From a virus, in the IMG/VR virus record IMGVR_UViG_3300045119_000180, positions 1 through 64,000 of that record: a stretch of 64,000 nucleotides of DNA; one strand, given 5' to 3'. A model generated the notes under the pieces. That model was given only the letters and a program-made list of their open reading frames with translations, made no database searches and was not told the origin of the DNA. This document shows positions 13,710-57,306 of this stretch, piece by piece (within the stretch, counting starts at the first letter, position 1; each line of letters begins with the position of its first letter). Both the position numbers and the translations under genes were made by a program.

Positions 13710-15994
13710 TTACTGAATTGCAGGCACGCTGTCAATGAAGCGAATACGTTGAGTATTAGCACCAGTGGCAGGTGGAAGCGTCCTCACTGTTACTCACGAT
13801 TTAATTCGTGGGGCCGGTCATTTCTGCCGGCCTCTCATAATTTCTTTTCTTATGAGAGCAGACTATCGCATCGCCCCGAAGGGCGTTCTCTCGCTTAGTC
13901 GTTCACGGTGCTTTTCAGCTTCCGCCTTGTTCCCATTTCAGGGTTCAAGTCAATCAGAGAGAATTATCTACTAACAGATTACGCTGCTAGGAGTCCGTGT
14001 TCTTGAACGGTTTGATGGAACTTGTAGCTCGACCCGAATTTGTTAATGTCCATCAACATGACTGATCATTTCTGTCAGTCTCATACAGTTTCTTTTCCTG
14101 TATGTCCAGACTATTGCATCGTCTTTCGACGTTCTTTCGTTTAGTCGTTCACGGTGTCTTTCGACTTCCGCCTCGTTGGCATTTCAGCGTTCGAGTCAAT
14201 TAGAAAGAATTTTAAGAGGACTAATCGTTATAAAAAAATCCTCCGATCGTGGCGGTAGGATCAAACGAAGAAGGCGGTGCGTCAGACACGACTTTGCAGT
14301 CGATCGTACGCCAGTCTCCCTCATCCAAATCCGTATCTCCAGGGACCTCCAACCAAACACCGATCAACGCATAGTTCCCGAAAATATAGGTCCTATACGC
14401 CGTCTTACCAGACGTTGAATAGCTCGCAGTCGTGGTAACAAACGGAGTCTGACGAAGAACGATATTGGTACCGGGAAGTTCGATTTCCATTGTCTGGTCA
14501 GAGCCAGCAATCTTGTCGAACTTTTCCATATTGGAATACTTCCAAAGATCCACAATCGAGTTGTTGACGGTCGTGGAATTGAAAATATCGCCGAGGACGT
14601 TAGGACTGATCGTCCCGCCGTATTTGCCCTTCTTGCAAGGCAGCACGTTCTTCGAAACAAGCTGTTGCTTGAGTTCGCGGATCGTTGCCAGGTCAAGAGT
14701 AAAAGGCGTTGTCAGAAGAGCCGACTGATTCACCTGGCTGTCAACGGTCGCGGCGGAATCCGCCACGGCGCTGTACAGTTCGGAAATCGATTGGCCAGCC
14801 TGATAGCCGAGTTCCACGGCCGAATTTCCCACTAGTTCATCAATCGCGGCTGCGATCGCGAACGAGGAGAAGTTCGTATAGTTATCTTATTTTTGTTTAG
14901 GTATCCTACGTCACCGTAGGAACGCGCTCAATGTCGCCAGTGAGAACAGACTCTATCTTCACGCCGGGAGGCGTGCTTGACGTATTAGTCGTTACGGATT
15001 CAGGTTTGTTAAGAGATTTCATTCTAATATGTAACTCCATCCGATCATCCGGTGCCGTTCTAGGCAGTCGAATATATTGAAGAGCTACTTTAGCTTGTTC
15101 TCTTTTAATTACTAAATAAGGCAGAATAGCAAGAATAAATTTCTCTTGATTCTCTCGTCTTTCCATACGCCACTGATAGCATACTTTCTTTGCAAAAGTA
15201 TTTGTGCGCTGGGACAACGGACGATACGATTGGCCAAATGTTGAAACCAACCACTTCATCAATTTCTCCGATGTATTGGAGACCCCTATTTGTAAATCGA
15301 AAGCCGGATAAGGATTTTTATTCCTATCCAATATCAGCGTCTTACTTATACAGAAGTAACCTTCTCCGTCAAGTAAAGCTGCTAGATATGCTAACTTCGA
15401 TTTATCTTTAGTAATCTTCAAACTTGTCTTTCCTCGGTACTGTCTGATATGTTTTATTATCATATCAGAGTTCCACCGATATAGTCAAGTGTTTATTTGC
15501 GAGAGGAATAAACGTTAATTCCTCCACTCGCCCACCTGGGCAGGTGCCGAAATTTGCCCAACGAACTCAGGAGCGCCGACGGTGCCGTCTGCGACCTGTG
15601 CGGTACTTCCAACCATCGTGTTGTACTGGAAGAAAGTCCGATTGATGCCCATATGAAGGGGCTGAACTCGACGCTCTGCCCATGCGACGAAACCATCGGT
15701 CTCGCCTTTGCTTTTTTGTTACCCTTTCGGGGATTAGTCATTTCTGCTAATCTCTAACAATTTTTATTCTTGTTAGAACGGACTATTGCATCGCCTTGCG
15801 GCGTCTTCTCGCTTAGTCTCTCAGGCTGCTTTCGCTTGCCCCTCGTTGCCGTTTCAGGGTTCGAGTCGATCAGAGAAGATTCTCACTCTTTCAAGTGACC
15901 CCTAATTGAGGTTCGGGATGAGTTCCTTGTCAAACAGTACTGCCTGTGCGGTCAGTACATTTCCTACATTAGCTGCTGAAGGGTTTGCACCCAT
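13710..15994 (-). CDS. Major capsid protein (N4-gp56 family type), interrupted by four group I introns
   Basis: Five exons can be read leftward: 15994-15909, 15710-15518, 14880-14238, 14034-14006 and 13778-13710. Joined, they give about 339 residues, MGANPSAANVGNVL to RIRFIDSVPAIQ. The product has the features of N4-gp56-type capsid proteins: ELIPNLK, GSTAQVADGTVG, GEWRNYTNFSSFA, ELGYQAGQSI, IGGWSSYKFHQTVLPP and a TQRIRFIDS end. The unspliced frames stop soon after each junction, for example after LIPNLN and GGFFYND. Junctions 1 and 3 also fit exon-guide pairing: GAGGAT at the exon 3 end pairs with GTCCTC at 14221-14216 with a final U:G. The exon 2/3 junction is the least certain. Scaffold and portal genes lie just upstream. 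Confidence 0.85.
13779..14005 (-). ncRNA. Group I intron 4 in the capsid gene (227 nt, no ORF)
   Basis: P3 is TTCTCTC with GAGAGAA, and P8 is CGCC(C)-TTCG-(G)GGCG. P7 is GACTA with TAGTC. P9 is CTCATAA/TTATGAG, with a GCCGG/CCGGC stem after it. A P2-like ATCT/AGAT hairpin precedes P3. The intron is placed between FHQTV and LPPATGANTQ by reading frame and a terminal G. The 5' guide pairing is weaker than for intron 3, so the 5' end may shift by a few bases. Confidence 0.8.
14035..14237 (-). ncRNA. Group I intron 3 in the capsid gene (203 nt, no ORF)
   Basis: P3 is TTCTTTC with GAAAGAA, P8 is CGTC-GAAA-GACG, and P7 is GACTA with TAGTC. P9 (CATACAG/CTGTATG), a GACTGA/TCAGTC stem and a short ATGT/ACAT stem follow. 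The 5' site GGAGGAT pairs over 6 bp with GTCCTC. Splicing to 14034 gives IGG-W-SSYKFHQTV, while the unspliced frame ends at FFYND. Confidence 0.85.
14881..15517 (-). ncRNA. Group I intron 2 in the capsid gene, carrying the LAGLIDADG gene
   Basis: The core is split around the endonuclease gene. P3 5' strand CTTGAC (15484-15489) pairs with GTCAAG at 14976-14981. P8 is the CACGCC/GGCGTG hairpin at 14960-14975. P7 is GACT in 14983-14995 with AGTC in 14949-14959. A stem-loop CTGATATG/CATATCAG near 15440-15470 resembles P5. P1 can form between GAGGAAT at the exon end and ATTCCTC. The exact 3' end is unsure: frame continuity favours resuming at 14880, but intron-terminal G residues are at 14886 or 14875. 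Confidence 0.75.
14906..15463 (-). CDS. Intron-encoded LAGLIDADG homing endonuclease, 185 aa
   Basis: One LAGLIDADG-type motif is visible at about residues 28-37 (LAALLDGEGY), with the usual alternation of hydrophobic and basic segments after it. The length fits a single-motif enzyme that acts as a homodimer. The gene lies wholly within intron 2. Its start lies in a predicted P5 stem-loop, and its last 35 codons overlap the P3, P7 and P8 strands of the ribozyme core, so the same bases are under both protein and RNA constraint. The expected role is cleavage of intronless capsid alleles. Confidence 0.85.
   Translation of the reverse strand: MIIKHIRQYRGKTSLKITKDKSKLAYLAALLDGEGYFCISKTLILDRNKNPYPAFDLQIGVSNTSEKLMKWLVSTFGQSYRPLSQRTNTFAKKVCYQWRMERRENQEKFILAILPYLVIKREQAKVALQYIRLPRTAPDDRMELHIRMKSLNKPESVTTNTSSTPPGVKIESVLTGDIERVPTVT
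15711..15908 (-). ncRNA. Group I intron 1 in the capsid gene (198 nt, no ORF)
   Basis: Reading leftward, P3 is TCTTCTC with GAGAAGA, P7 is GACTA with TAGTC, and P8 is CGCC-GCAA-GGCG, followed by P9 hairpins. The intron starts after a U in AACCT, pairs with a GGGT internal guide, and ends in G before CAAAGGCGAG. Removing it joins LIPNL to KGETDGF in frame. Introns 3 and 4 have the same architecture with compensatory changes in P3 and P8. Confidence 0.85.
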
Positions 15995-17547: not shown

Positions 17548-19653
17548 TTATCCGACGGTAGTGCTGCCAAAGCCGGTATTGCCCGGTTGGCCTTCCACCT
17601 CTTCAGAAGTCAGTGCGTGCTCCGTTACTTGACGGAGAACTTCGGCGCCAGCCTTGCCTAGTTGTTTCTGGTCTTCCAGTTTCGCTTCCTGCTGGAACTT
17701 AGCTAACTGTTGCTGTTGTGCCGATTGAGCTTGTTGTTGTGCCAAAGCCGCAGGACTATTAGCTTGACGTCTAGCCATTTGTTCTGGCGTCATCTTGACC
17801 AAAAATGGCTGTGCATACTTCCAGCCGGCTAGATCACTAAGGTTCTTAAACAAAGCCGTAGCGTCCCAGTTGTATCCTGCCTCGTTGATGTTCTCGGTAA
17901 ATGTAGGATTGTTGATAAGCTGGATAGCCAAAGGAAGGAACTGCGTCATCTCTTTCTTTGGGCCGAGATGGGCACCAGCTAACACTTCATATTCGATCTT
18001 GGCGTTACGGAAATCGACGTGATCAACTTCAGCGATCTCGCCTAACTCTTCGCCAAGTGTGTTACGAAGAACTGACGTCGGAAGCATCTGGTTATTTAAT
18101 TCATCCATAATGTACAACCAAGGTTCAAAAATCTGGCGGATGAATCGACCGTCCGGACCGTCTAGACGGCTAGCATTAGCTTGGACTACAGCGGCTGCGC
18201 CTGTACCTGAACGCATACCAGTTGTACGTACACCAGGACTACCAGCGCCTTGAATTACTTGTTCGTTAGCGCCAGACGTTGCTGCAGCAGCTGATTGAGC
18301 CTGCTGGATAAACTGCCACGCCTCACCAGGGACTGGGGGCATAGTAAGAAACTTAAAAGCCTTGTCGACATCTTCGTCGACATCAATAATGCCGCCTTGC
18401 TTCCATCTGATCTGTTGCGTAGGCGCGTTAAAGCCCTTCTTACGAACTGCCGTGGGCTGAAGACCATAAGCCAGAAGGTCCAAAGCAAGGTTGGTAACAC
18501 CCTGCTCAACCATCTGCTCAGCGCCAATAAGGATGCCGAGGCCCTGGCCATAGAAACAGTCGGGGATATTACGCCAGTTAAAGGATAGGAAAGGAATCCT
18601 ACCGTACGGATTCTGCTCGTTACGGATAAGAATGTTATGCCCGTTGAAGTGCAGCATAACGATAACTCTGTCGCCGTCCCACCGTTCTAATAGCTCCAAC
18701 GGAGCCTTCATCGGGTCGGCGGTGTTCTTATAGCTCCGCGGGATAGCGTGCTGCAAATAACCGCGCATCCCTTCCGGGATGGTCAATGTAATATTGTCAA
18801 CGCCAGTCGTGGGCTTCGAAGCGAACAGAGCCTTCAGTACAGTCTCTTCTGGAATGTCATAGCCTTCGAAACCACGTAGCTTGTCCAGATCCGAATATGT
18901 CGCGAAGTCTCTATAAATAACCCAACTTGCTCGCCGAATATCGCCGTAGCGACAGCCCGGATCAACCAAGACAGTCCGCAAATCGCAGTATTTAATCCAC
19001 GGGCGACTAACCAACTTGTCTTTATAAATAATTTCAACAGCATCGGAGTCCGGCGTATCAATCTTGCTGGTTCCGACAGGAGTGTCCAACGACATCTTGC
19101 CGGCCTTGCGCTTATAAACCTTTTCCTTTTTAGTAAATTCGGTATAACCCCACTTCATAACGCCCGTACCGAGAAGGGCTCCCTGCTCAAGCGTTCGCTC
19201 AGATTCTTCTTCGAACTTCATGTCATAAAGCTGAGCGGCGAACAGAGCTGTCTTGGCGCGGGTTACATCTGTCGAGGTACCTGGCCGGGGGCGGAGAAGG
19301 AAAGGAGGGTCTTCATAAAAAATTCCCCCCATCAATTTTGGGACGATAGAACTGATGTGATTACTTACGAGGAACTTTGGTACGTTAGCCTGTGCTACGT
19401 TACCGCCATCAAATGCAGAGATGCCTGCGGGACTTTGGTAAAGCGTATCCGCGAGGGTCCACCCGGCCGACCACTGCGCCACGTTAATAAAATTGTCTGC
19501 TAATTGCGCATCATCAATAACTAACTTAACGGCAGCACGGTCATCAAATTCATAGATACCGGTCTCTGGGTCATCCGTTATATTATCTTCTGTAATCTCA
19601 TCCGCAGGAAGAATCTCTAATTCCGCTAACTTCTTTTCGTCTGATTCACTCAC
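17548..19653 (-). CDS. Portal protein, 701 aa
   Basis: A long, mixed alpha/beta protein directly downstream of TerL and the inserted GIY-YIG gene, upstream of the scaffold and capsid genes. It contains the features of podovirus-type portals: an N-terminal region with DDAQLADNFINVAQWSAGW, a central wing segment with LAYGLQPTAVRK and a MEQGVTNLALDLLAYG helix. A Gln/Ala-rich C-terminus (AALAQQQAQSAQQQQLAKFQ) could form the barrel or crown. The size fits the larger portals of short-tailed phages. It should form the dodecameric DNA gate at the capsid vertex. The start overlaps the GIY-YIG stop by 8 nt. Confidence 0.8.
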   Translation of the reverse strand: MSESDEKKLAELEILPADEITEDNITDDPETGIYEFDDRAAVKLVIDDAQLADNFINVAQWSAGWTLADTLYQSPAGISAFDGGNVAQANVPKFLVSNHISSIVPKLMGGIFYEDPPFLLRPRPGTSTDVTRAKTALFAAQLYDMKFEEESERTLEQGALLGTGVMKWGYTEFTKKEKVYKRKAGKMSLDTPVGTSKIDTPDSDAVEIIYKDKLVSRPWIKYCDLRTVLVDPGCRYGDIRRASWVIYRDFATYSDLDKLRGFEGYDIPEETVLKALFASKPTTGVDNITLTIPEGMRGYLQHAIPRSYKNTADPMKAPLELLERWDGDRVIVMLHFNGHNILIRNEQNPYGRIPFLSFNWRNIPDCFYGQGLGILIGAEQMVEQGVTNLALDLLAYGLQPTAVRKKGFNAPTQQIRWKQGGIIDVDEDVDKAFKFLTMPPVPGEAWQFIQQAQSAAAATSGANEQVIQGAGSPGVRTTGMRSGTGAAAVVQANASRLDGPDGRFIRQIFEPWLYIMDELNNQMLPTSVLRNTLGEELGEIAEVDHVDFRNAKIEYEVLAGAHLGPKKEMTQFLPLAIQLINNPTFTENINEAGYNWDATALFKNLSDLAGWKYAQPFLVKMTPEQMARRQANSPAALAQQQAQSAQQQQLAKFQQEAKLEDQKQLGKAGAEVLRQVTEHALTSEEVEGQPGNTGFGSTTVG

Positions 19654-20272
19654 CTAAACCTTCTTGACTGGCGGCTTTAATCTTACGAAGAACCCAAGAA
19701 TCCCTCATTCTCTGAAGAGACTCTTCGGTATGTTTTCTACCTAAATTACCTTTTCTTATTCTTTCTATGACGTCTTTAGGACGTGGACGACCAAGCAGTT
19801 TTTCAGATATCTTTCTTTTTGCTTCTTCTGATACCGGAATTCCTATATGACTCAAAGACAATTTCAACAGAGTCTCAGGAGAACAAACGTGCTTACCTTT
19901 ATTACCTTCAGAGAGCTTCTTTCTTTTCTCTTCTGAACAAGGTCGGCCTTTGTGGATCTCCGACATCCTCTTTAAAGTTTCTTCTGTGTGAGAAAAAACC
20001 AACCCACCAGTCGTTAAATTGTATCCGTTAGGAGTAAGCGTGCCGTACTCAACAATATATTTTTTCTCGAGTTCGTTTGCTTGATCTCGACTGTCCACTT
20101 CACAGATAGCTTCTATAGTAAAATTAAGATACCCATACTTATCTATGGCGTGCTTAAGAGCACGACAATTTGAATGGTATCTATGATTCTTCCACCGTCT
20201 CTTAAGTGAAAACTTCGTTTGACCAACATACCGCTTACCATTAATAGTATTCGTGATCAAATAAACAAACAT
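19646..20272 (-). CDS. Free-standing GIY-YIG homing endonuclease, 208 aa
   Basis: Residues 1-90 form a GIY-YIG nuclease domain: VYLITN, then KRYVGQTKFSLKRRWKNH, and the catalytic Glu in ANELEKKYIVEYG. The C-terminal half is a row of NUMOD3-like DNA-binding repeats (HTEETLKRMSE.HKGRP and similar, about five copies). It lies between TerL and portal, overlaps the portal start, and is preceded by a strong hairpin. Confidence 0.85.
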   Translation of the reverse strand: MFVYLITNTINGKRYVGQTKFSLKRRWKNHRYHSNCRALKHAIDKYGYLNFTIEAICEVDSRDQANELEKKYIVEYGTLTPNGYNLTTGGLVFSHTEETLKRMSEIHKGRPCSEEKRKKLSEGNKGKHVCSPETLLKLSLSHIGIPVSEEAKRKISEKLLGRPRPKDVIERIRKGNLGRKHTEESLQRMRDSWVLRKIKAASQEGLGE

Positions 20273-25890: not shown

Positions 25891-26487
25891 CTAACGAGTT
25901 TCGATTTTGATCGAGCTATCTCCCTCGTGCTTCTGCAAGTACCGAATGGCGCTTGCAAGAATCTCTTCTTTCTCCCGGGCATAACCCAAGAGAGAATTAC
26001 ATTTAACACACAACAAATCTCTATTCTTACCAGTCGTGTGATTATGATCTATATGCGGTCTTTCGCTTTTAAGAACAGCATCCCAAGATAAAAGCAACCC
26101 ACAAATAGTACAAAGACTATTCTGTGCTTCTAATTTGGCTTTAAGCTCTTCAGGAGATATCTTATACTTATAAGACTTAGTTCTAAATCTCCAAAGCTCC
26201 CCTGTTCTAGATTTTCGTTTTTTGTCTCTTTCTTCTCTAGGAGTAGCCTGGTATCTAGCTTTCTGATACTCCCTAGCATACTCTCTAGCTCTATCTATGT
26301 TCTTCTTTCTATACTCGCCTTGCTTCTTGTATATAGAGCTTTTATTTTCTTGATAATATTTAGAAAGTCTTTCTTTATTACAAGGTCTACAATATCCACA
26401 CTTACCGGACTTAACGACACTAATCGGACAATTCTCTTCCGTTAAAGTCGTCTTGCATATATGACACAAACCTAAACCAATACTCAT
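25891..26487 (-). CDS. HNH homing endonuclease (Endonuclease VII-like), 198 aa
   Basis: An N-terminal zinc module (CHICKTTL...CGYCRPCNKERLSKYY) and a basic linker with YREYAREYQKAR-like repeats are followed by a recombination Endonuclease VII-type core: CTICG, HIDHNHTTGKNRDLLCVKCN. The gene lies between two virion genes and has a hairpin in front of it, as do the other leftward free-standing endonucleases. Confidence 0.85.
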   Translation of the reverse strand: MSIGLGLCHICKTTLTEENCPISVVKSGKCGYCRPCNKERLSKYYQENKSSIYKKQGEYRKKNIDRAREYAREYQKARYQATPREERDKKRKSRTGELWRFRTKSYKYKISPEELKAKLEAQNSLCTICGLLLSWDAVLKSERPHIDHNHTTGKNRDLLCVKCNSLLGYAREKEEILASAIRYLQKHEGDSSIKIETR

Positions 26488-28211: not shown

Positions 28212-29026
28212 TATGCCCACCGTCCAAGATGCTGAGTAAAGATGTCTGTTACAACCAAAGCATTAGCTGCGTCTTTATATCTCAGCCAGAAATTACCCTT
28301 ATCGCCCCAGCCGGCGCCCCAGCTATTGCGAACAAGAAAGCTTCCGCCATTGACCGAATCGTCGTAACCAATAGCTAGAACAGCGTGGCCGCCTAGAACC
28401 TGCTCGTTAGCCGGATCCGGGGACCAAATACCATCTCGCCCCATCTGTGGCGATTCGAAAGACTCGTAAACTTGAAAACCTAACTTAAGGTTGTATTCAG
28501 AAGCTATGACAGACTTCATGTCGTCGACGTTACCAACGGCATGATAACTGCCAGTGGGAAACTTCAAAGCGTCGGCAAGCTGAGTAGCTGTCGGCGCGGT
28601 AGAGTAATCCTGGTCGTTATACGGCATTTCGCTACGAAGACCGTTGCCGTACAGCTGACCAACCTTACACGACGTCCGGATCTGCGAACCACAATCGCCC
28701 TGATTAAGACTGCCGTCCATATACCGCTCTTGATAATACGTGAACGACGGGCTAAACATTCCGATGGCGGTAGGGGCGGGCTTATGACCGTGCTCGGCCA
28801 ATGCCTGCCAATGAAGGTATTCGCGATCGGCGCATTCTGAATGCGCGGTGCAGGATCCTTGCTGACCTTGATTTAAAACCGGACCCATAAACTTTAAGTT
28901 GTCGGTCTTGCTAGGAAGCGTCTGACCAAAGAGAAATGGAAATCTGCTAATTCCAAAATCTCGATGATCCCGAACTGACGGGAGCAGGCCATATCTACGA
29001 CCTGAATTAGACAGTGGAAGGCTCAA
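28211..29026 (-). CDS. Papain-like (C1A) cysteine protease, 271 aa
   Basis: The C1A active-site order is intact. The oxyanion Gln and nucleophile lie in NQGQQGSCTAHS (Cys59). The His is in GGHAVLAIGYDD (about 220) and the Asn in VRNSWGAGWGDKGNFWLRY (about 240). There is no long propeptide or signal peptide; the N-terminus has LLPSVRDHRDFGIS as in bacterial and phage C1A proteins. It could process virion proteins or be carried in the particle. Substrate is unknown. Confidence 0.85.
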   Translation of the reverse strand: MSLPLSNSGRRYGLLPSVRDHRDFGISRFPFLFGQTLPSKTDNLKFMGPVLNQGQQGSCTAHSECADREYLHWQALAEHGHKPAPTAIGMFSPSFTYYQERYMDGSLNQGDCGSQIRTSCKVGQLYGNGLRSEMPYNDQDYSTAPTATQLADALKFPTGSYHAVGNVDDMKSVIASEYNLKLGFQVYESFESPQMGRDGIWSPDPANEQVLGGHAVLAIGYDDSVNGGSFLVRNSWGAGWGDKGNFWLRYKDAANALVVTDIFTQHLGRWA

Positions 29027-29435
29027 TAAATCTCCTTATATAAACAGCCAATCTTTCTATCTTCTCTGGGTCTTCTTTTAAAACGCCTAATGCAAAATTG
29101 CAACTATGACAAAGAATAGCCCTAACTTTGTTAGTAGCGTGATTATGATCTACACACCAAATGTCACCGGTCTTTCCGGATTTGTCACAACCACAAGACG
29201 CACACTTAAAACCTTGATCGCTAAACATCCGATCTCTTTCTTCTATCGTAATCCCGTATTTTCTAATTAAATGCCAGTTATACGATTTTCTAATGTGGTC
29301 TGGTTTACTTGATCTACGTTTATAATTACAAGGCATACACTCGTAACCATAACCGCGTGTAAGACTTTTATCTCTTGCAAACTTAGCTTTAGACAGAAAT
29401 ACTTTACACGTACTACACCGTAATTTTCTAGACAT
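29007..29435 (-). CDS. HNH homing endonuclease (Endonuclease VII-like), 142 aa
   Basis: An N-terminal CSTCKVFLSKAKFARDKS...CMPCNYKRR zinc module precedes the Endonuclease VII core CASCGCDKSGKTGDIW, VDHNHATNKVRAILCHSCN. Its end overlaps the start of the protease gene by 20 nt, and a hairpin lies upstream. Confidence 0.85.
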   Translation of the reverse strand: MSRKLRCSTCKVFLSKAKFARDKSLTRGYGYECMPCNYKRRSSKPDHIRKSYNWHLIRKYGITIEERDRMFSDQGFKCASCGCDKSGKTGDIWCVDHNHATNKVRAILCHSCNFALGVLKEDPEKIERLAVYIRRFIEPSTV

Positions 29436-32302: not shown

Positions 32303-32488
32303 TCAATCTTTCTTTTGGCCAAATGCCCATGCGGCGAATCCGCCGCTTAATGTCGTTATACAGCCTAAAATGATCTGAAGGCCATATGAGCTTTCTTCCA
32401 TTACCTTGCCTAGCGCGATTATGCCGGCTAGGCAGCCAATGACCAGCAGGAGGCTAAAACCAAATACTGCTTTCCATTTGTCGGTCAT
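32303..32488 (-). CDS. Small two-span membrane protein, 61 aa (holin-like)
   Basis: Two hydrophobic segments (about residues 8-27 and 36-55) are separated by a short acidic turn, with a basic tail GQKKD. Size and topology fit a class II holin, but other early membrane proteins look similar. The start overlaps the HNH stop by 4 nt. Confidence 0.5.
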   Translation of the reverse strand: MTDKWKAVFGFSLLLVIGCLAGIIALGKVMEESSYGLQIILGCITTLSGGFAAWAFGQKKD

Positions 32489-32895
32489 GTTCTACCACAA
32501 CGTAATCTTTGTTTAGTCAAAACGGGCTTAAGCTCTAAAAACTCTTCGTAACCCCACCAAGCGCCTTTTTTAGTATTGCAAGTAGTACAACACGGAACGA
32601 CGTTATTAGCGGTATGCTTTCCTCGGTTATCCTTTCTGTCCAAAGAATGACCATAAACAGGAAGTCGGCCGCCACAATAATGACACGGACTTCTTAGGAT
32701 CGCATGGTAGTAATATCTGATATTCCACAAAGGATCCGTCTTTTCGATTTTATCCGCTTTTAAAATTTTAAAAAGTGCTTTGAAGCGCCGGTGAAGCGGA
32801 CGACACTCAAGACAAAAAAGCGATCTGTGATTTCTAATAAAGCTAGTCGTACAAAGAGCACACACGCGCCACAACTTAAGATCAAACCAATTCAT
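32485..32895 (-). CDS. HNH homing endonuclease, 136 aa
   Basis: An N-terminal CALCTTSF...FCLECRPLH zinc module is followed by CHYCGGRLP, HSLDRKDNRGKHTANNVVPCC and CNTKKG, a complete HNH core. This is the first gene of the leftward run and has its own upstream hairpin. Confidence 0.8.
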   Translation of the reverse strand: MNWFDLKLWRVCALCTTSFIRNHRSLFCLECRPLHRRFKALFKILKADKIEKTDPLWNIRYYYHAILRSPCHYCGGRLPVYGHSLDRKDNRGKHTANNVVPCCTTCNTKKGAWWGYEEFLELKPVLTKQRLRCGRT

Positions 32896-40998: not shown

Positions 40999-41366
40999 AA
41001 CTTCTGTTAGTGTTCTTTCTTTTGCCAACGGTCATATACGGACAGTCAAAGAAAGAATTACTAAAGGTGTATTCTGAGGCTAATAAAGATTACTTTGAAA
41101 ATAAGTTGCCTCCGATCAGTATAGTATTTATAAAACATTTACAACAAAATGGTGATAGTCTTATGGCAACGACATTCTGTAATGATGCCGGTTGCACAAT
41201 TGATATAGACCCGGATAAAAACCCTAACACCCGGGTAGCGGTTATGACGCTTTATCATGAAACGTGTCACGTTTATCTGTGGGATAAGCAAGCAGGTCAC
41301 GGAGAAAAGTTCGAAAATTGTATGGTAAGATTGGCTGAATTGGGTGCTTTTGAGGGTTATTGGTGA
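40995..41366 (+). CDS. Exported SprT-like zinc metallopeptidase, 123 aa
   Basis: A signal peptide (MKLLLVFFLLPTVIYG) precedes a small SprT-like domain with HETCH (88-92) and a downstream GHGEKF His (102), matching HExxH...H. Cys pairs at 62/67 could form a disulfide in the periplasm. SprT-type enzymes are normally cytoplasmic DNA-protein crosslink proteases, so export is unusual. Coupled by ATGA to the previous gene. Confidence 0.7.
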   Translation: MKLLLVFFLLPTVIYGQSKKELLKVYSEANKDYFENKLPPISIVFIKHLQQNGDSLMATTFCNDAGCTIDIDPDKNPNTRVAVMTLYHETCHVYLWDKQAGHGEKFENCMVRLAELGAFEGYW

Positions 41367-41728
41367 TAGATAAGGTTCGGGCAAGAAGATTAAAAAATTT
41401 CTTTAATTTAACTGAAGAAGAGTGGGAACGAATTAGCCGCTATCAAAACGGCGTCTGCGCTATTTCTGGCAAGAAGCAGAAGAGTGGCAAGAGACTGGCT
41501 ACAGATCACGATCATAAGAGCGGCATGATCCGCGGGTTGCTGACAGCAGAATCTAACAGACTACTCGGCAAAGTAGAGCGGCTGTGGACCGTCGATCAAA
41601 TCAAATTGGTAATTGAATATCTTCTTCATCCGCCGGCCGTCCGCGCTCTAGGAAAGGAAGTATTTACATTTCCAGGCAGGCTTGGAACGAAAAGGCATAG
41701 AAAATGGCTATTAAAAAACAAAAAATAA
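41360..41728 (+). CDS. Endonuclease VII-like homing endonuclease, 122 aa
   Basis: GVCAISGKKQKSGKRLATDH, DHKSGMIRGLLTAESNRLLG and a helical end match the recombination Endonuclease VII core, with the first CxxC pair reduced to CAIS. That may weaken zinc binding. The start is TTG or the adjacent GTG. The gene is inserted between early genes with short overlaps. Confidence 0.7.
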   Translation: MVIDKVRARRLKNFFNLTEEEWERISRYQNGVCAISGKKQKSGKRLATDHDHKSGMIRGLLTAESNRLLGKVERLWTVDQIKLVIEYLLHPPAVRALGKEVFTFPGRLGTKRHRKWLLKNKK

Positions 41729-45424: not shown

Positions 45425-46039
45425 ATGGCTATTATAGGGTGTCATCTTCCTTTATCTGTCCGTATAAAACTACGGGCAATAAGAAAGGAAAGAGGTGAGT
45501 GTACTTGGTGCGGTGCTGAAGTAGAAGGAGATTTGAGAAATAGAGTAACCGGAAAGTTGAGAACGATGTGCCGTAAGTGTCTTCGTGATAATGCGGACAA
45601 GTTAGCTCGATATAGGCAAATTCGTCACTCTAAAGGTTTATGTGAAAGATGCGGTAAGAATCCTCCTAAGCCAAGCCTTAAAAACTGTATAGAGTGTACG
45701 GAAAAAGTGCGCTTCTATTCTAAAAAGCACCAAGACGCAACATTTTTTGAGAAACGAGCTAGAGTCGGCGGGATGCAGTATTCGGTAGCCAGCGCAAAAA
45801 TGTTGTGGTCTCTTTGGAAAGAGCAAAGAGGCCGCTGCGCTTTAACGGGCGAAAGATTGACAAGAACGAATAGTCAATTAGACCATATATTTCCAGTATC
45901 TAAAGGCGGTTCAAACGAGCGTTCAAATTTACGTTGGCTTTTAGCAGAAGTAAATCAGGCTAAAAGAGCTTTAACAGACGATGAGTTCTTATTGTTGTGC
46001 AAACGCGTAGTCGATTGGGCGGAAAGAAATCGGAGTTAA
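45425..46039 (+). CDS. HNH homing endonuclease, 204 aa
   Basis: Three zinc modules (CTWCGAEVEG...CRKC; CERCGKNPPK...CIEC; CALTGERL) lead to the HNH core QLDHIFPVSKGGSNERSNLR. It lies between the SSB-like and primase genes. Confidence 0.8.
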   Translation: MAIIGCHLPLSVRIKLRAIRKERGECTWCGAEVEGDLRNRVTGKLRTMCRKCLRDNADKLARYRQIRHSKGLCERCGKNPPKPSLKNCIECTEKVRFYSKKHQDATFFEKRARVGGMQYSVASAKMLWSLWKEQRGRCALTGERLTRTNSQLDHIFPVSKGGSNERSNLRWLLAEVNQAKRALTDDEFLLLCKRVVDWAERNRS

Positions 46040-46040
46040 C

Positions 46041-48074
46041 TTGACCTTTCTCGAGATAGCCAAACCTTTAACAGCCCGCGGGATTCCAGTTATACCGCTA
46101 CGACCAAGAACCAAAATCGCGTTACTAGACGATTGGCAAAACCGAGCGACTACCGACGAATCTCAAATTCAGTTGTGGCACGAAGAGTACCCGGAGGCTA
46201 ATGGTGCGGTGGTAGCTATCGCTGTTAGTACCGGATTCTGGTTTTTGGAGGTGGATAGCCATGAAGTCGTCCCGCGTATTGAAAAAGAAACAGGCCAGAA
46301 GTTCCCGGAAACCTTTGCGGTCAGATCGTCACCGGGAAAAAGCCATTTCTACTTCAGACAGTCAACAGCTAGTATGCGAATGGGCAACATTGCTCAGACT
46401 AAAGAGAGCGGTTGGTCCGCAAGGGTGGACAGATCTTATTGCGTTAGCCCGGGAAGCGTCCACCCGATTACAGGACTTTGCTACGAAGTTAAAAACTCAG
46501 CAGAAATCGTCGAAGCGCCAGAATGGCTAATCGAGTGGCTTAAAAACCAACGCATCGAAAAGAAATCCGTTCAGCCAGACGAAGATCAGCATTTTTATTC
46601 CGGTAGCCGTAACGTCCATCTAGCCAGCCGCGCTGGTAAGATGCGCAACGCAGGCATGAGCCAAACGGAGATTGAGAATACGCTGTTGCGTATGAACCAG
46701 GATCTTTGTCATCCGCCGCTAGATGAAAACGAAGTTCGCGTAATTGCTGGAAGTATCTCGAGATACGACATTCCACGTGAAACGGTCCTGTTACATGGCG
46801 GCGTTCCGGTCAACGGTAATGGAGGCGTGGCCGTACAGACGGCGGTAGAGGCGCCGCAGCATCAAAGTGCCATTATTCCTTATCCGGTCTTCCCGGATTG
46901 GGTTATGTCCGGAACGTCGCTTTACGAAGGTTTTATCAAACCTATTTGCGATATTAATAGCCGGTATCCCAGCTTTATGTTCATGCCGGCTGTCGCGCTG
47001 ATGCTGAACTACCTTGGTACACGCATTACGATTGAGTACAAGCCAAATAAGCCTAATATCTTTCTCGTTCTGATCGGCAGGCGTGGCAGAACAATGAAGT
47101 CGGCCAGCGTAGAAGACGCTTTGCATTACTTCGAACAAGCCGGATTGCTAGCGCATGGCGGTCCTGGAATAGCCAATGCAGGCGGCAAAATGCTCGTCTG
47201 GACGCCCGGTTCACCTGAAGGCTTTGGTTTAGAGATGGCCAGGACGAACTGTAAGAACGGTGTTATCTATTACGATGAATTGTCAACGTTGACCAGCAAG
47301 GCCGGTATTGAGAATAGCGGACTAGCTAGCCGACTATTACAGCTTTACGAATCCGCAAAGTTCCAGAACGTCGTTAAGTCAAAGAAGGAAACGTTTGGTT
47401 TAGAGCCTAAGACGTATTGCGCGTGTCTTCTAGCCTGTTCAACGGATAAGAACTTTCAAAAGGATTGGGCGAAGATGTCCGCGGGCAGTTCCGGACTGGA
47501 CGATCGAATGTTCTTTCTTCTGCAGCCTGAAACGCTCAAGGAACTCACTCCGTACAAGGCTGTTTGTGTTCAGGAAGGCGCCCTCGAGACTCGAAGGTTG
47601 ATTGACAAGGCTATTGACCAACAGCACTTTAAATTCTCAGATGAGATGGTTCTGCAGGCGGCTAGTAAGCGGCTAGGCAACCGAGCCTTTATCCGTGTAG
47701 AGAAGCTGGCTATTTACTTCGCTGTCGATCTAGGTCGAGATGAACTAGATTCAGATTGTTGCGAACGCGCACTTGCGGTTTGCGAGTACGAACAGTCTGT
47801 CAAGAAATATCTAAAAACGTTTGAAGGCGTTACGAAAGAGAGTTTGCTACAACAAGAAATTATGTTTAGGGTGAGGCAAAGCCCAGAAGGATTAACTGTT
47901 AGAGATATTAATAGGGTTCTACATCCCAAACGCTACGGCACCAGCCTATGGAAGACAGCTTATTATGGCCTTCTTAACATGGGCTGGTTGGCCGAGATCG
48001 GAGATGGAACTAAATCGTCGCCACGCAGACTGATATCTTTATTGGCCGCCGAAGACGATGAGGATGAAGATTAA
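46041..48074 (+). CDS. Prim-pol primase fused to a helicase-like domain, 677 aa
   Basis: Residues 1-175 follow the bifunctional primase/polymerase N-terminal (prim-pol) domain: GIPVIPLRPRTKIALLDDW, a WFLEVDS acidic motif and GKSHFYF. Residues about 185-250 are a primase C-terminal-type helical module (NVHLASRAGKMRNAGMSQTE). The rest is a DUF3987-type ATPase region in which the P-loop is degenerate (LIGRRGRTMKSAS) and IYYDELSTL resembles Walker B. Expected to prime and possibly unwind DNA. TTG start with CGGAG 5 nt upstream. Confidence 0.75.
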   Translation: MTFLEIAKPLTARGIPVIPLRPRTKIALLDDWQNRATTDESQIQLWHEEYPEANGAVVAIAVSTGFWFLEVDSHEVVPRIEKETGQKFPETFAVRSSPGKSHFYFRQSTASMRMGNIAQTKESGWSARVDRSYCVSPGSVHPITGLCYEVKNSAEIVEAPEWLIEWLKNQRIEKKSVQPDEDQHFYSGSRNVHLASRAGKMRNAGMSQTEIENTLLRMNQDLCHPPLDENEVRVIAGSISRYDIPRETVLLHGGVPVNGNGGVAVQTAVEAPQHQSAIIPYPVFPDWVMSGTSLYEGFIKPICDINSRYPSFMFMPAVALMLNYLGTRITIEYKPNKPNIFLVLIGRRGRTMKSASVEDALHYFEQAGLLAHGGPGIANAGGKMLVWTPGSPEGFGLEMARTNCKNGVIYYDELSTLTSKAGIENSGLASRLLQLYESAKFQNVVKSKKETFGLEPKTYCACLLACSTDKNFQKDWAKMSAGSSGLDDRMFFLLQPETLKELTPYKAVCVQEGALETRRLIDKAIDQQHFKFSDEMVLQAASKRLGNRAFIRVEKLAIYFAVDLGRDELDSDCCERALAVCEYEQSVKKYLKTFEGVTKESLLQQEIMFRVRQSPEGLTVRDINRVLHPKRYGTSLWKTAYYGLLNMGWLAEIGDGTKSSPRRLISLLAAEDDEDED

Positions 48075-48584
48075 TTGAAGCCGGAGATTAAGAGAAATAA
48101 ATGGGGTGTTCGTATTTGTGAGCACAACAGATTACAATATCGATGCAAAGAATGTGACGGAAGTCTAATTTGTGAGCATAATAGACGACGAAATGATTGC
48201 ATAGAATGCGGCGGTGCTTCAATCTGTGAGCACAAAAGACATCGAAATCGTTGTAAAGAGTGTCGCCCTTTAGGTTGGGCTAAAGTTAAATTGAAACAGA
48301 TGCGTCAACGTTCTCGAAAAGGTGGATACAAAATCCCTGATATAACACCAGAGAGAATTTTGTTGCTTAGCACAAAAAAGAACTGCCTTATGTGTCATTT
48401 GCCTTTTACGTTAAACAACAACCCGTCTTGTCTTCATCATAATCACGAGACCGGTGAAGTTTACGGGTTCGCTCATAGGGATTGTAATCGAATGGAGGGT
48501 TTTTTCGGTAAATTGACTACGGCTCAGCAGGTTCGTTTTTTACAGACTCAATTCCCGGATGTCGTCAAGGCACTTAGAAAATGA
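48075..48584 (+). CDS. Endonuclease VII-like homing endonuclease with CEH zinc repeats, 169 aa
   Basis: Three tandem zinc units (ICEHNRLQYRCKEC, ICEHNRRRNDCIEC, ICEHKRHRNRCKEC) occupy residues about 10-70. The Endonuclease VII core is CLMCHLPF, LHHNHETGEVYGFAHRDCN. It abuts the primase stop and overlaps the polymerase start by 4 nt, so it is inserted exactly between two replication genes. Confidence 0.8.
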   Translation: MKPEIKRNKWGVRICEHNRLQYRCKECDGSLICEHNRRRNDCIECGGASICEHKRHRNRCKECRPLGWAKVKLKQMRQRSRKGGYKIPDITPERILLLSTKKNCLMCHLPFTLNNNPSCLHHNHETGEVYGFAHRDCNRMEGFFGKLTTAQQVRFLQTQFPDVVKALRK

Positions 48585-49771
48585 AAAGATTGGTCTTCGT
48601 CGATTTTGAAACCCGATCGTTACGGGAATTGCGCGGTCAAACCAGCGTAGGTCTTTCAAACTACACGATGGATGCCTCAACGGAGGCTATAATTTTAGCG
48701 TGGGCACTTGATAACGAAGAGCCAAACGTATATTTTCCGCTGTGGCAAGTTATGCCGGAGGAGCTTAAAAAGGCTTTGGAAGATTCGTCTGTAGACATCG
48801 TAGCTTATAATAGCGCCTTTGAAAGAAATGTATTCCTTTATGTATTGGGAATTGATCTGCCAGTAAGTCGCTTTCAAGATCCCCAACCATCTGCTAGATA
48901 TCTTAGTCTTCCTGGAAGCTTGGAAGATGTAGGGGGCATTTTAAAGCTACCCGATGAACTTAAAAAGGACAAAGAAGGTAAACGTCTTTTAGACGTGTTC
49001 ACAAAACCGACGAAAAAGAAAGGTAAAGAGAGTTATTTCCGCGATTGGGATTCGGATCCCGAAGATTGGCAACGTTTTGTTGAATACGCAAAGCAGGATA
49101 TCAGAGCGGAAAGAGAGATCTTGAAGCGCTTGGAAGCCCTCGGCACTTATCCATTACTGCCTAGGGAAAGAGACATCTGGGAGCTTGACCAGAAGATCAA
49201 TGGCCGTGGTATTCCCGTCGATCGGCCGTTTGTTACGAGTATGTTCAATCTTGGTGAGCGGGCCAAGAAGGACGCTATTGGCGAACTGAAGCGACTTACT
49301 GGTTTGGAGAACGCTAATTCGAATAGCCAGATGCTTCAATGGGCGAAGAAGGAAGGATATAGCAAACAGAGTCTTCGTAAAGAGACGGTCCTGGCCGAAT
49401 TGAAGTTCAATACTGAATTGACGCCTCTGTGCCGACAGGTATTAGAGTTACGGAAAGCTGCGTCTTCTACTTCATACAAGAAAATGGCAGCTCTTCTCCG
49501 CTTGTCCAGTTCGGACCAGCGGTTGCGCAATCAATTCCTTTATCTAGGCAGTCCGCGGTGTGGCCGGTGGAGTGGCAACGGCTTTCAGTTTCATAATATG
49601 GCCCGACCGACACAGGATTTTGAGGACCTTGAAACGGTAGATGAAGCCCGAAGATTGGTTAGTGCCGAAGACTATCAAGGTGTCATTGCGAAGTTCGGAA
49701 AGCACCCGAAGGACTACGGCGCTGTATTAGGGGTCGTTAAGAGCTGTATAAGGACTGCATTTTGTTCATAG
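48581..49771 (+). CDS. DNA polymerase family A, N-terminal part (3'-5' exonuclease and thumb), 396 aa
   Basis: Exonuclease motifs FVDFETRSL, VAYNSAFERNVF and YAKQDIRAEREI are intact. The thumb follows (ERDIWELDQKINGRGIPVD). The region GSPRCGRWSGNGFQFHNMAR is the conserved pre-palm segment with the RFSS-like turn. The frame ends at CIRTAFCS, just before palm motif A, which is in the next overlapping frame. It may be a separate subunit or a frameshifted half of one enzyme. Confidence 0.8.
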   Translation: MKRLVFVDFETRSLRELRGQTSVGLSNYTMDASTEAIILAWALDNEEPNVYFPLWQVMPEELKKALEDSSVDIVAYNSAFERNVFLYVLGIDLPVSRFQDPQPSARYLSLPGSLEDVGGILKLPDELKKDKEGKRLLDVFTKPTKKKGKESYFRDWDSDPEDWQRFVEYAKQDIRAEREILKRLEALGTYPLLPRERDIWELDQKINGRGIPVDRPFVTSMFNLGERAKKDAIGELKRLTGLENANSNSQMLQWAKKEGYSKQSLRKETVLAELKFNTELTPLCRQVLELRKAASSTSYKKMAALLRLSSSDQRLRNQFLYLGSPRCGRWSGNGFQFHNMARPTQDFEDLETVDEARRLVSAEDYQGVIAKFGKHPKDYGAVLGVVKSCIRTAFCS

Positions 49772-50703
49772 CCGCAGACTTGAACGCCATAGAGACTCGG
49801 GTAGCTGCTTGGTTGAGCGGCTGTCAGTCGCTATTACAAGTGTTTTACGATAATCAAGACCCGTATATATCGTTTGCAAATCGTATGACGGGTATTATGT
49901 ACGACAAGTTGGCCAAAGATCTTAAAAGCGACAATCCGGCCGTAAAAGCCGCGGCTAAAGGTCATCGCCAAGTCGCTAAACCAGGCGTTTTAGGCTGCGT
50001 TTACCGTCTAGGTCCGGGCCAGATAAGCACCAATAAGCACGGCGATCAGGTCAAAACAGGCTTGTGGGGCTATTCAGAGGCTATGGGCGTTTCAATGACG
50101 CAGGATAAGGCCCAGGAGGTAGTTCAGGTCTTCCGCCAGTCATATCCGGAGATTTGCGAGATGTGGTATAGCCTTGAGGAAGCCGTTTCAGACGTTCTGA
50201 AGGGCCAACGGACAAAACGCGAATTAGGGCCTGATGGCTGCATCAAGATCGATAAGATACCGAATGGTGATACCGAGATCCTACGTATCCAGTTGCCCAG
50301 TGGGCGCCGATTGCACTATCTAGAGGCTCAGATCAAGCCTACCAAGATGCCTTGGACCAAACTGAACGACCAGGGCGAAGAGGAAGAAGTTTATAAGCCT
50401 ACGTTGAATTACGCCTCAGTTGACCAGGAAACGAAGCAATGGGGTTATACTACCAGTCATGGTGGTAAGATATTTGAGAACATTGTTCAAGGTACGGCTC
50501 GAGACGTCCTGGCAGAGCAAATGCTAAGATTCGAAGAGTGGCATTTGAATATCGTTGCTCACGTTCATGACGAAATCATCGTAGAGTGCGATACGGACGA
50601 ACTGAAGTTGGCTGAAGAGATAATGTCACGGAGTATTGATTGGGCTCCTGGTTTGCCGTTGGCCGCTGAAGGATGGCGAGGAAATTACTACAGAAAGGGT
50701 TGA
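49762..50703 (+). CDS. DNA polymerase family A, C-terminal catalytic part, 313 aa
   Basis: Motif A is FIAADLNAIETRVAAWLSG, motif B is RQVAKPGVLGCVYRLG and motif C is VAHVHDEIIVE, so all three catalytic motifs are present. It starts with TTG at 49762, overlapping the upstream stop by 10 nt in the -1 frame. There is no obvious Shine-Dalgarno, which argues for reinitiation, frameshift or a sequence error. The loop before motif A is a few residues shorter than in most relatives. Confidence 0.8.
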   Translation: MFIAADLNAIETRVAAWLSGCQSLLQVFYDNQDPYISFANRMTGIMYDKLAKDLKSDNPAVKAAAKGHRQVAKPGVLGCVYRLGPGQISTNKHGDQVKTGLWGYSEAMGVSMTQDKAQEVVQVFRQSYPEICEMWYSLEEAVSDVLKGQRTKRELGPDGCIKIDKIPNGDTEILRIQLPSGRRLHYLEAQIKPTKMPWTKLNDQGEEEEVYKPTLNYASVDQETKQWGYTTSHGGKIFENIVQGTARDVLAEQMLRFEEWHLNIVAHVHDEIIVECDTDELKLAEEIMSRSIDWAPGLPLAAEGWRGNYYRKG

Positions 50704-50734: not shown

Positions 50735-50917
50735 ATGAAGAAGAAATTCGCTAAATATCTTATTCCAAAGCGCGCTAAAATACTATTAAGCGCCAATCGG
50801 CTAATTGATTCGTTTAATGAAAAAGAGCAAACATGGGAGACAGACGATACAGACGGTCATCCGCACGAGTTTACGGCTATTTATAAACTCGTTCGTGTCA
50901 AGAAGGTCAAAAAGTGA
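50735..50917 (+). CDS. Small basic protein, 60 aa
   Basis: MKKKFAKYLIPKRAKILLSA with a Lys-rich end, coupled by ATGA overlap to the annealing-protein gene. Unknown function. Confidence 0.55.
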   Translation: MKKKFAKYLIPKRAKILLSANRLIDSFNEKEQTWETDDTDGHPHEFTAIYKLVRVKKVKK

Positions 50918-51978
50918 AAGCAAAATTCATACCATTAGGCGATTTAAGCAATCTTTCAGAAGAGCAGAAGCTTGACTATTATAATAACGTCTGTGAACAC
51001 TTTGAAGTGCCGGCAGAACTGAATTTATTGTATTTCGATTGGTTCGATTCGGGCGACGGAGCCAGAAAGTACATCCTTTACGCCGCGAAGGGCTTTTCGG
51101 ACTTTATGCGCGGCAAACTGGGCATTGAAACGGACAGTTTGGAAGAGTCGGTTTCAGATGGCGTAGTACGGTATAAGTGTAAGGGCCACGATAAAGATGG
51201 CCGTCACGAAATTGCTATCGGCGCAAGTACGATCGCAGGACTTACAGGTAAGAAGCTCGAGGATTCTTTCGCGAAAGCACAGACGAAAGCAACCAGGCGT
51301 ATGACGCTGCAATTTGTAGGCGCCGGCATTCTAGACGAATCTGAAAAGTCAGTTACAAGCCTTTCTGTTGACATTTCTTCCGCAGGTCTTCCTCTGGCCC
51401 AACTGCCCACAGTAGAGATCAACGCTGCTAAGGGTAAGTTGGTTGAGATGGCTAATGAGGCTACTAATCGGGCGGTTGATATGCTTCATGATCAGCATCC
51501 TCTGGCTTTTGAAGCCGTAAAGGTTTCTGGCGAACTGGTTGCTGCGGTTAACGGTTTGGAAACGGAGCTGCGTCGACGTCCAGGACCAAAGCAGTCTGAC
51601 AATTTGGTAGTTGACACCAATTTGGGTACAGTTGACACCAATTTGGGTACAGTTGACACCAATTTGGGTACACCTGCCGAATTGACTTTTAAGCAATGGC
51701 TAAGTCGCCTTACGAATGAAATCCTGCCACCTCCTCCAAGCGGCCAATCCGGGACGTTTACGACTTATGGCGGTATGAAGCCGTCGTTAGGCGTTGGCGG
51801 CGTATCAATGAAAGTCGTTTCGTACGCCAGGAAGGTCTTTCCGGGCAAGGAAATAAAAGAGTTTACTCTAGACGATCAAAACGCGTTCAAAAAAGGCTTC
51901 GATAATGTATTAAAAGAGCAAGGTGCGGTCGGTTTGGTTAAACATATAAACGATTCGTTAGGTGTAAAGGAGGGCTGA
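50914..51978 (+). CDS. Putative phage recombination / ssDNA-annealing protein, 354 aa
   Basis: The N-terminal half shows KYILYAAKGFSDFMRGKLGI, GRHEIAIGASTIAGLTG and KAQTKATRRMTLQFVGAGIL-DESE, the pattern of a phage family often placed near RecT/Erf-like recombination genes. A low-complexity linker carries three exact VDTNLGT repeats. The C-terminus (about residues 240-354) is a separate basic domain. The partner PD-(D/E)XK nuclease lies two genes downstream, a classic annealing protein/exonuclease pairing. Confidence 0.55.
   Translation: MKAKFIPLGDLSNLSEEQKLDYYNNVCEHFEVPAELNLLYFDWFDSGDGARKYILYAAKGFSDFMRGKLGIETDSLEESVSDGVVRYKCKGHDKDGRHEIAIGASTIAGLTGKKLEDSFAKAQTKATRRMTLQFVGAGILDESEKSVTSLSVDISSAGLPLAQLPTVEINAAKGKLVEMANEATNRAVDMLHDQHPLAFEAVKVSGELVAAVNGLETELRRRPGPKQSDNLVVDTNLGTVDTNLGTVDTNLGTPAELTFKQWLSRLTNEILPPPPSGQSGTFTTYGGMKPSLGVGGVSMKVVSYARKVFPGKEIKEFTLDDQNAFKKGFDNVLKEQGAVGLVKHINDSLGVKEG
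51610..51672 (+). repeat. Triple 21-bp in-frame tandem repeat
   Basis: Three exact 21-nt units encode VDTNLGT three times in the linker of the annealing-like protein. Perfect identity implies recent expansion by slippage. Confidence 0.9.
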
Positions 51979-56040: not shown

Positions 56041-56825
56041 TGGATTTAAGCAAAGTCAGCATCGGGATTCGTACTTTTTTACGCGATGAGTGCTTAAAAA
56101 ATTCTATCGCAGCGATTCGCCGTACGATGCCTGACGCTAAAATGATAATTGCAGACTGCGGAGAGCATACGCAGGAAAAGTATGATCTTTATTCAGAGCT
56201 TAGCCGGGAAGGGCATTTGTGCTTTACGCTTCCATGGGATTCCGGATTTGGCTGTATGAGCAATTGTATTGCGAGCGCAGCAACTCGGCCCTATCTTTTG
56301 ATTGGCAGTGATGATTTCGACTTTAATCCTCCGGAAGTAAGAAAAGGGATTGAGTCTTTCGTGGAGTGTTTGGATAACTGGCCGACTTTAAGCGTTGTTA
56401 GCGGACGGGTCAATAATAAATTTTATGAGTATTACTTAGAAGACAAAGGCGACGAAATTAAAGAGTCGCCAGCTCTGTGGGGTATTTATGCCGCGGCAAA
56501 TCAAATTATTCCCTGGCTCTATCCAATTGATCTGACGGTTAATTACTGTTTAGTTCGAAAAGAAGTATTTCAGAAAGTCCAATGGGATCCAGAGGCTAAG
56601 ATAGGGCAAGGTGAACACGGTTCGTGGTTCGTGGATATCAAGCGAGCAGGTCTTAAAGTAGGTTGGATACCCGGAGTTAGCATTAGCGAACAGCCGAATC
56701 AGAACAGTGATCGATATCGTGAATTCCGTAATAGAGCTAGGAGCCCCGAAAGAAGTTGTTTTAAGAAACGCGGCATTAAGAAGTATGTTTTAGGTTGCGG
56801 AACAGTCGACTATGAAGAGACGTAA
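56040..56825 (+). CDS. Family 2-like glycosyltransferase, 261 aa
   Basis: A GT-A fold is indicated by VSIGIRTFLRDECLKNSIAA, a SGFGCMSNCI segment and the DxD-like LLIGSDDFDFNPPE. The C-terminal GSWFVDIKRAGLKVGWIPG is the acceptor-side motif of GT2 enzymes. Likely transfers a sugar in the cytoplasm to a phage or host glycan. Confidence 0.75.
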   Translation: MDLSKVSIGIRTFLRDECLKNSIAAIRRTMPDAKMIIADCGEHTQEKYDLYSELSREGHLCFTLPWDSGFGCMSNCIASAATRPYLLIGSDDFDFNPPEVRKGIESFVECLDNWPTLSVVSGRVNNKFYEYYLEDKGDEIKESPALWGIYAAANQIIPWLYPIDLTVNYCLVRKEVFQKVQWDPEAKIGQGEHGSWFVDIKRAGLKVGWIPGVSISEQPNQNSDRYREFRNRARSPERSCFKKRGIKKYVLGCGTVDYEET

Positions 56826-57306
56826 GAAGTGTACTAAATGCGGAGAAATAAAGCACTTTTCTTGTTTTTCGCCGGACAAAAGGGATGAAAAAGGCCGTCT
56901 GCGTTGGCGAATGGGCGTTTGTACTGCTTGTAGGTCCGAAGGTTTTAAAAAGAAGTACTGGAACGACCCTGTGGCAGCAAGGAGAAATGCCAGGAAAAAT
57001 AGGACCTCAAAAAAGATGAGGGACTGGAATTTAAGATTTGCTTATGGAATAACTCTATTGGAGTGGGAGGATATTTTTACAAAGCAGGGCCGACAGTGTG
57101 CTATTTGTAAAAGAAAGAAACCAATTGGTCTAGGTTGGGCGACAGATCATAAAGGTTGGCATTGCAGAAGAGGTAAATTACGTAAAAGAATAAGAGCAAT
57201 TTTATGTCAACATTGTAATACTCTTTTAGGCCAGGCAAGAGAGTCGGTAGATATTTTAAAAGCGGTAATTGCGTACATAAGAAACAATAAATGGGCAAAT
57301 TATTAA
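56812..57306 (+). CDS. Endonuclease VII-like homing endonuclease, 164 aa
   Basis: An N-terminal CTKCGEIKHFSCFSPDKRDE...CTACRSEGFKKKYW module and a core CAICKRKKPIGLGWATDH, ILCQHCNTLLGQARE match the Endonuclease VII layout. It is inserted between two glycosyltransferase genes and overlaps both. Confidence 0.82.
   Translation: MKRRKKCTKCGEIKHFSCFSPDKRDEKGRLRWRMGVCTACRSEGFKKKYWNDPVAARRNARKNRTSKKMRDWNLRFAYGITLLEWEDIFTKQGRQCAICKRKKPIGLGWATDHKGWHCRRGKLRKRIRAILCQHCNTLLGQARESVDILKAVIAYIRNNKWANY

Follow-up and report, generated by a model that had tools for sequence, protein, structure and literature searches.

Results

Anatomy of the polymerase locus

The window, by which we mean the whole stretch of 64,000 nucleotides analysed here (positions 1 to 64,000 of IMG/VR record IMGVR_UViG_3300045119_000180), carries at 48581-50703 one family A DNA polymerase gene spread over two ORFs that overlap by 10 nt, ORF2 being in the -1 frame relative to ORF1 (Table 1). 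The first-pass annotation had described a polymerase split before palm motif A, with an exonuclease and thumb ORF ending at 49771 and the catalytic motifs in a -1-frame, TTG-initiated ORF starting 10 nt earlier. The sequence and the ORF coordinates bear this out, as do the profile matches: ORF2 is recognised as DNA_pol_A (PF00476, E 4.5e-15), and a single PHROG polymerase profile, phrog_17, covers the two halves in succession (ORF1 669-1001, E 2e-48; ORF2 1008-1231). ORF1 contains the exonuclease motifs and motif 1 and aligns end to end with the N-half of unsplit relatives, giving the exonuclease and thumb N-terminal to the palm; its identity to this half of relatives is 42-57%. The family A motifs A, B and C are all kept in ORF2, their key residues falling in invariant columns.

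Table 1. Features of the polymerase locus and other genes of the window mentioned in the text.
Feature	Position	Strand	Remarks
Primase-polymerase (PrimPol) gene	46041..48074	+	PF09250, E 3.5e-23
Endonuclease VII-type homing-endonuclease-like gene	48075..48584	+	PF02945, E 6.8e-6; overlaps polA-N start by ATGA
polA-N (ORF1)	48581..49771	+	ATG start, TAG stop, 396 aa; 3'-5' exonuclease, thumb, motif 1
Shine-Dalgarno-like TAAGGA	49749..49754	+	within polA-N codons for I-R-T; TTG of polA-C 7 nt on
polA-N/polA-C overlap, site of lost six-residue loop	49762..49771	+	10 nt; net -19 nt relative to unsplit relatives
polA-C (ORF2)	49762..50703	+	TTG start, 313 aa; palm and fingers, motifs A, B and C
Motif A, DLNAIETR	49777..49800	+	catalytic Asp 6 and Glu 11 of polA-C; invariant columns
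Motif B	49966..50004	+	R69, K73 and Y81 of polA-C; invariant columns
Motif C, H-D-E	50566..50574	+	H269, D270 and E271 of polA-C; invariant columns
ORF downstream of polA	50914-51978		three VDTNLGT repeats
Further homing-endonuclease-like genes	19649-20272, 25894-26487, 29010-29435, 41360-41725, 45425-46036, 56812-57303	-, -, -, +, +, +	
LAGLIDADG-like ORF	14909-15463	-	by eye
HNH ORF	32488-32895	-	sub-threshold

The C-terminal end of ORF1 reads ...VVKSCIRTAFCS, and ORF2 begins (L)FIAADLNAIETRV. In a family profile alignment the counterpart of the break region in Taq polymerase is RIRRAFIAEEGWLLVALDYSQIE, which indicates that the break has removed the loop joining the RTAF segment to the motif A strand. 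When polA-C was modelled alone with AlphaFold2, the prediction was confident (pLDDT 93.8, pTM 0.90) and its first strand comprised residues 2-7; in a Foldseek comparison of this model with the PDB, all the matches listed were family A polymerases. The predicted structure of an unsplit relative, G001, likewise matches family A polymerases in the PDB and places the motif A strand (residues 412-419) directly after the loop.

The TTG codon of polA-C is preceded by TAAGGA, a sequence that 0.9% of random positions in the stretch equal in score. No canonical slippery heptamer (X XXY YYZ) is present in the overlap, as the first-pass annotation had noted; the TAAGGA and the missing six-residue loop go beyond that annotation, as does the occurrence of the same split in nine other contigs. 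In the 104-kb record, which is possibly incomplete, this was the only family A polymerase recognised, and none of family B or C was. The ORF downstream of polA is conserved at that place in most relatives and has no match in Pfam, PHROGs or NCBIfam.

Split and unsplit relatives

A search of relatives for the same split, as the first-pass annotation had proposed, found it in the same loop in nine other distinct IMG/VR contigs of 57-112 kb (G008, G012, G013, G014, G016, G017, G021, G024 and G026). With the window included, polA is present as two ORFs in 10 records and is continuous in 19 unsplit relatives, namely sixteen from the original set and the later-found G028-G030. In all 19 unsplit relatives read, six residues make up the loop that separates the RTxF segment from the motif A strand. 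One of the split contigs, L003 (G026), is identical to L004 (G027) across the 10,969 bases compared, though the two come from separate metagenomes.

The junctions differ from one another. Those of the window, G013, G026 and G017 have no insert and their halves overlap, the net length relative to the unsplit loop being about -19, -8, +2 and -4 nt, respectively. The frame relation across the junction is +1 in G013 and -1 in G026 and G017; in other relatives the halves lie hundreds of nucleotides apart, with other genes between them. Stop/start overlaps of the form ATGA or GTGA occur in many split genomes. The quality of the Shine-Dalgarno sequence for the C-half ranges from good to poor among the other split genomes; almost no such sequence is present in G017, whose halves overlap by ATGA.

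The rows nearest to the window are all unsplit (52-59% identical), and the window has no close split relative. In the split pairs G021/G026, G012/G024 and G008/G012, NG86 Ka/Ks was about 0.07-0.12 for both halves, with Ks above 1 throughout, so that the ratios are rough. The N-half value for G017-G008 was left unused as an apparent artefact, probably due to a stop codon in the extrapolated start that shifted the codon alignment. As far as codon comparison can tell, both halves are thus under purifying selection in these split relatives.

No relative turned up when bacterial and archaeal genomes were scanned with an alignment of the C-half. This split was seen in none of 60 isolate phages in a spread sample of those with relatives of this PolA, and the DNA pattern of the window's own junction had a sole match, in the unrelated contig L036.

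Other irregularities of polA were encountered elsewhere in the family. In the distant relative G010 (L179, G010:C1:38000-51000), a 387-aa DNA-methyltransferase-like ORF, overlapping each half of polA, breaks the gene elsewhere, at a point between the exonuclease and the thumb. The PolA reading frame changes some 30 codons before motif A in L088 and L101. In L008 a stop codon interrupts the frame about 120 nt ahead of motif A, a stretch that is open in L005-L007, its close relatives. L073, L074, L079 and L096 have long insertions, in frame and probably inteins, in the neighbourhood of motif B or C.

Origins of the split

A maximum-likelihood tree was calculated from both halves joined, with the junction columns left out. 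The window sits among unsplit genomes (support 95/91 in the larger tree), while the remaining split genomes form a second group, G013, G021 and G026 (99/98), and a third, G014, G016, G017, G008, G012 and G024 (100/99). The joined-half tree calls for a minimum of three changes between split and unsplit states, and forcing all split rows into one clade was rejected (AU p 3e-4 and 1.7e-7). When the halves were analysed separately the window stayed with unsplit rows, the number of changes being four for the N-half and three for the C-half. By these trees, fission at the loop before motif A arose independently at least three times, the window included. One ancestral split followed by re-fusions was considered and rejected; by hand count it takes about five changes as against three, and each re-fusion would have to restore the six-residue loop.

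Nuclease genes in and beside the break

In the window an Endonuclease VII-type gene stands between the PrimPol gene and polA-N; in G001, which is unsplit and belongs to the same sub-clade as the window, the PrimPol and polA genes are direct neighbours and no nuclease gene separates them. Several of the split relatives have ORFs within the break itself. Those of G008 (140 aa) and G014 (189 aa) are both of Endonuclease VII type (PF02945), and that of G016 (209 aa) has the same CxH..CxxC repeats as Endonuclease VII-type proteins and no Pfam match. The breaks of G012 and G024 hold small ORFs that resemble each other, and that of G021 holds an ORF of 93 aa.

The window's nuclease is related to the proteins found inside the split, with 40% identity to that of G014 and 35% to that of G008. 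These two are its best matches in 25 records (E 1e-36 and 1e-29), the next having an E of 1.7e-16. The endonuclease lies within the split in G008 and G014, with a relative in G016; the window's family member lies upstream of polA-N. No close member of this family was found beside an unsplit polA, the only candidate being a weak match (23-31%) 2 kb upstream in G011, and the window's protein had no match in the phage collection. The first-pass annotation had suggested past intron or endonuclease activity at this locus. The endonuclease part of that suggestion is strengthened by the nuclease, or its relative, within the split of three relatives and by the family relationship between the neighbouring gene and those nucleases; as to an intron, none was detected.

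The window contains at least six further homing-endonuclease-like genes (GIY-YIG, Endonuclease VII type and HNH), and one LAGLIDADG-like and one sub-threshold HNH ORF were also noted (Table 1).

Alternative explanations of the split

The frame break at 49.76 kb could be an artefact of sequencing or assembly, polA being continuous in the genome. The window is a single metagenome contig, small errors typically give a -1 frame change and unsplit relatives do exist. However, measured against each of the unsplit relatives, the junction shows a net change of 19 nt, amounting to the entire loop, and so a single-base error does not explain it. In addition, polA-C has a good Shine-Dalgarno sequence and a start codon, and the same break was found in the nine other contigs, one of them with identical DNA from two metagenomes, and in two deposited phage genomes; we consider an artefact very unlikely. 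Least likely of all, in our estimate, is a programmed -1 ribosomal frameshift, by which one mRNA would give a truncated PolA-N and a full-length polymerase. The -1 frame of ORF2 and its 10-nt overlap with ORF1 would suit such a mechanism, but the overlap contains no slippery heptamer, the shift in relatives is +1 or -1 or the halves are far apart, and the shifted product would lack the six-residue loop that every unsplit relative has. A group I or II intron was rejected, as the ORFs overlap and neither the window nor L170-L175 gave an Rfam match, and so was a split intein, the end of ORF1 and the start of ORF2 being polymerase residues with no intein-sized extension. Since no frame, intron or intein is common to the junctions, frameshifting and splicing are both unlikely. 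The first-pass annotation had offered a two-subunit polymerase, a frameshift and an assembly error side by side; recurrence of the split in nine more contigs, and in at least three lineages counting the window, favours the first, and the differing junction frames and spacings together with the net 19-nt change speak against the other two.

The gene might also have been inactivated recently, with replication carried out by another polymerase of the host or one that is unrecorded. The nearest relatives are unsplit, selection after the break cannot be read from any close split relative, and the record may be a fragment. Against this, apart from the break the two ORFs are undamaged and keep all their motifs, a 6-nt Shine-Dalgarno sequence stands at ideal spacing, the 104-kb record yielded no other replicative polymerase, and split forms persist in other lineages under what appears to be purifying selection. 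We therefore regard inactivation as improbable. A further alternative, compatible with a two-subunit enzyme, concerns only how the window's split came about: a plain out-of-frame deletion of the loop in which a nuclease had no part, the neighbouring gene being a coincidence in a nuclease-rich genome. The window's junction is indeed a small net deletion with no insert, other nuclease-like genes are present elsewhere in the window, and HNH-like genes also adjoin unsplit polA (e.g., in G009 and G022, by eye). On the other hand, the neighbour's two best relatives in the 25 genomes are the in-break nucleases of G014 and G008, and no close family member lies beside an unsplit polA. We give plain deletion slightly less than an even chance. 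A role for a homing endonuclease is supported by the anatomy of the G014/G008 lineage; for the window's own split, the odds between such a role and plain deletion are about even.

Discussion

We conclude that the division of the window's family A polymerase into two ORFs is real and that the product is most likely an enzyme of two subunits, a reading to which we assign a probability of about 0.84. On our best reading it is the product of recurrent gene fission associated with homing endonucleases. PolA-N and PolA-C would be translated from the overlapping genes as separate polypeptides, initiation of polA-C occurring at TTG 49762 from its own Shine-Dalgarno sequence and probably being coupled to termination of polA-N. 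The two proteins would then assemble non-covalently into one active polymerase whose palm would be made up of parts of both subunits. On this view the split arose when the gene was divided at the loop immediately preceding motif A, as happened on at least two further occasions in related phages. The Endonuclease VII-type gene in the break of one lineage suggests that the likeliest general route is insertion of a nuclease followed by loss or replacement of the insert. In the window the visible scar is the out-of-frame net loss of 19 nt, of which a nuclease may have been the cause.

Family A polymerases encoded by two ORFs have been recorded in other phages. In the OM43 phage MEP401 two ORFs, separated by a small third one, are reported to encode the polymerase, and an intron was considered and left open; the report gives no position of the break relative to motif A (PMC10580990). 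Our reading of the proteins gp13 and gp15 of MEP401 shows them to be divided at the loop that precedes motif A, as in the window. MEP401 and its companion MEP402 (Zobellviridae; PMC10580990; OP830906) resemble the window in this respect, but their polymerase and genome are far diverged and their break holds a small ORF, whereas the window's break holds none and has a nuclease gene next door. In Alcaligenes phage vB_Af_QDWS535 (OK172329), for which a literature search found no paper, two adjacent genes both carry a family A polymerase annotation; they overlap at stop and start, and the break between them falls in this loop as well. This polymerase is MEP401-like and falls outside the window's clade. 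L199 (MW202796) has a polymerase gene of the MEP401-type C-half, with no N-half recognised directly upstream.

Homing endonucleases are known to have cut genes in two in a handful of T4-like cases. Nuclease insertions split nrdA in phage Aeh1 (mobE) and gene 60 in T4 (mobA), and a seg-like insertion is associated with the split gene 43 (PolB) of Aeromonas phage 25 (PMC2988022). Function has been shown for split nrdA and for gp43A/gp43B, whose separate polypeptides reassemble, and both halves of the phage 25 PolB co-purify with activity (PMC2988022), so that the two-part principle has been demonstrated in another polymerase family. In these cases, as in the window's clade, the cut falls in a critical region of a conserved phage gene and is associated with a free-standing homing endonuclease. 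The proteins concerned are different, one being a reductase, another a topoisomerase and the third a polymerase of family B, whereas in the clade studied here a family A polymerase was severed at one loop on at least three occasions and several genomes have insert-free forms. Recurrent fission of a family A polymerase at the loop before motif A is not described in the open-licence literature searched.

In one phage clade the core catalytic domain of a presumed replicative family A polymerase has been severed at a single loop on at least three separate occasions, and distant phages show the same cut. For the engineering of two-part polymerases, this loop offers a natural place to divide the protein. 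More tentatively, at somewhat less than even odds, the loop before motif A may be a privileged fission point of family A polymerases. Homing endonucleases would target the conserved DNA that encodes it in this clade of phages of about 100 kb, and repeated cutting would lead to nuclease-resistant two-subunit polymerases in which the insert has been lost or swapped, as obligate heterodimers with the palm and the catalytic strand on different chains. Because the nuclease gene is still present in the break of some genomes and has been lost from others, the path from an insertion to a stable two-subunit enzyme is directly testable in these phages.
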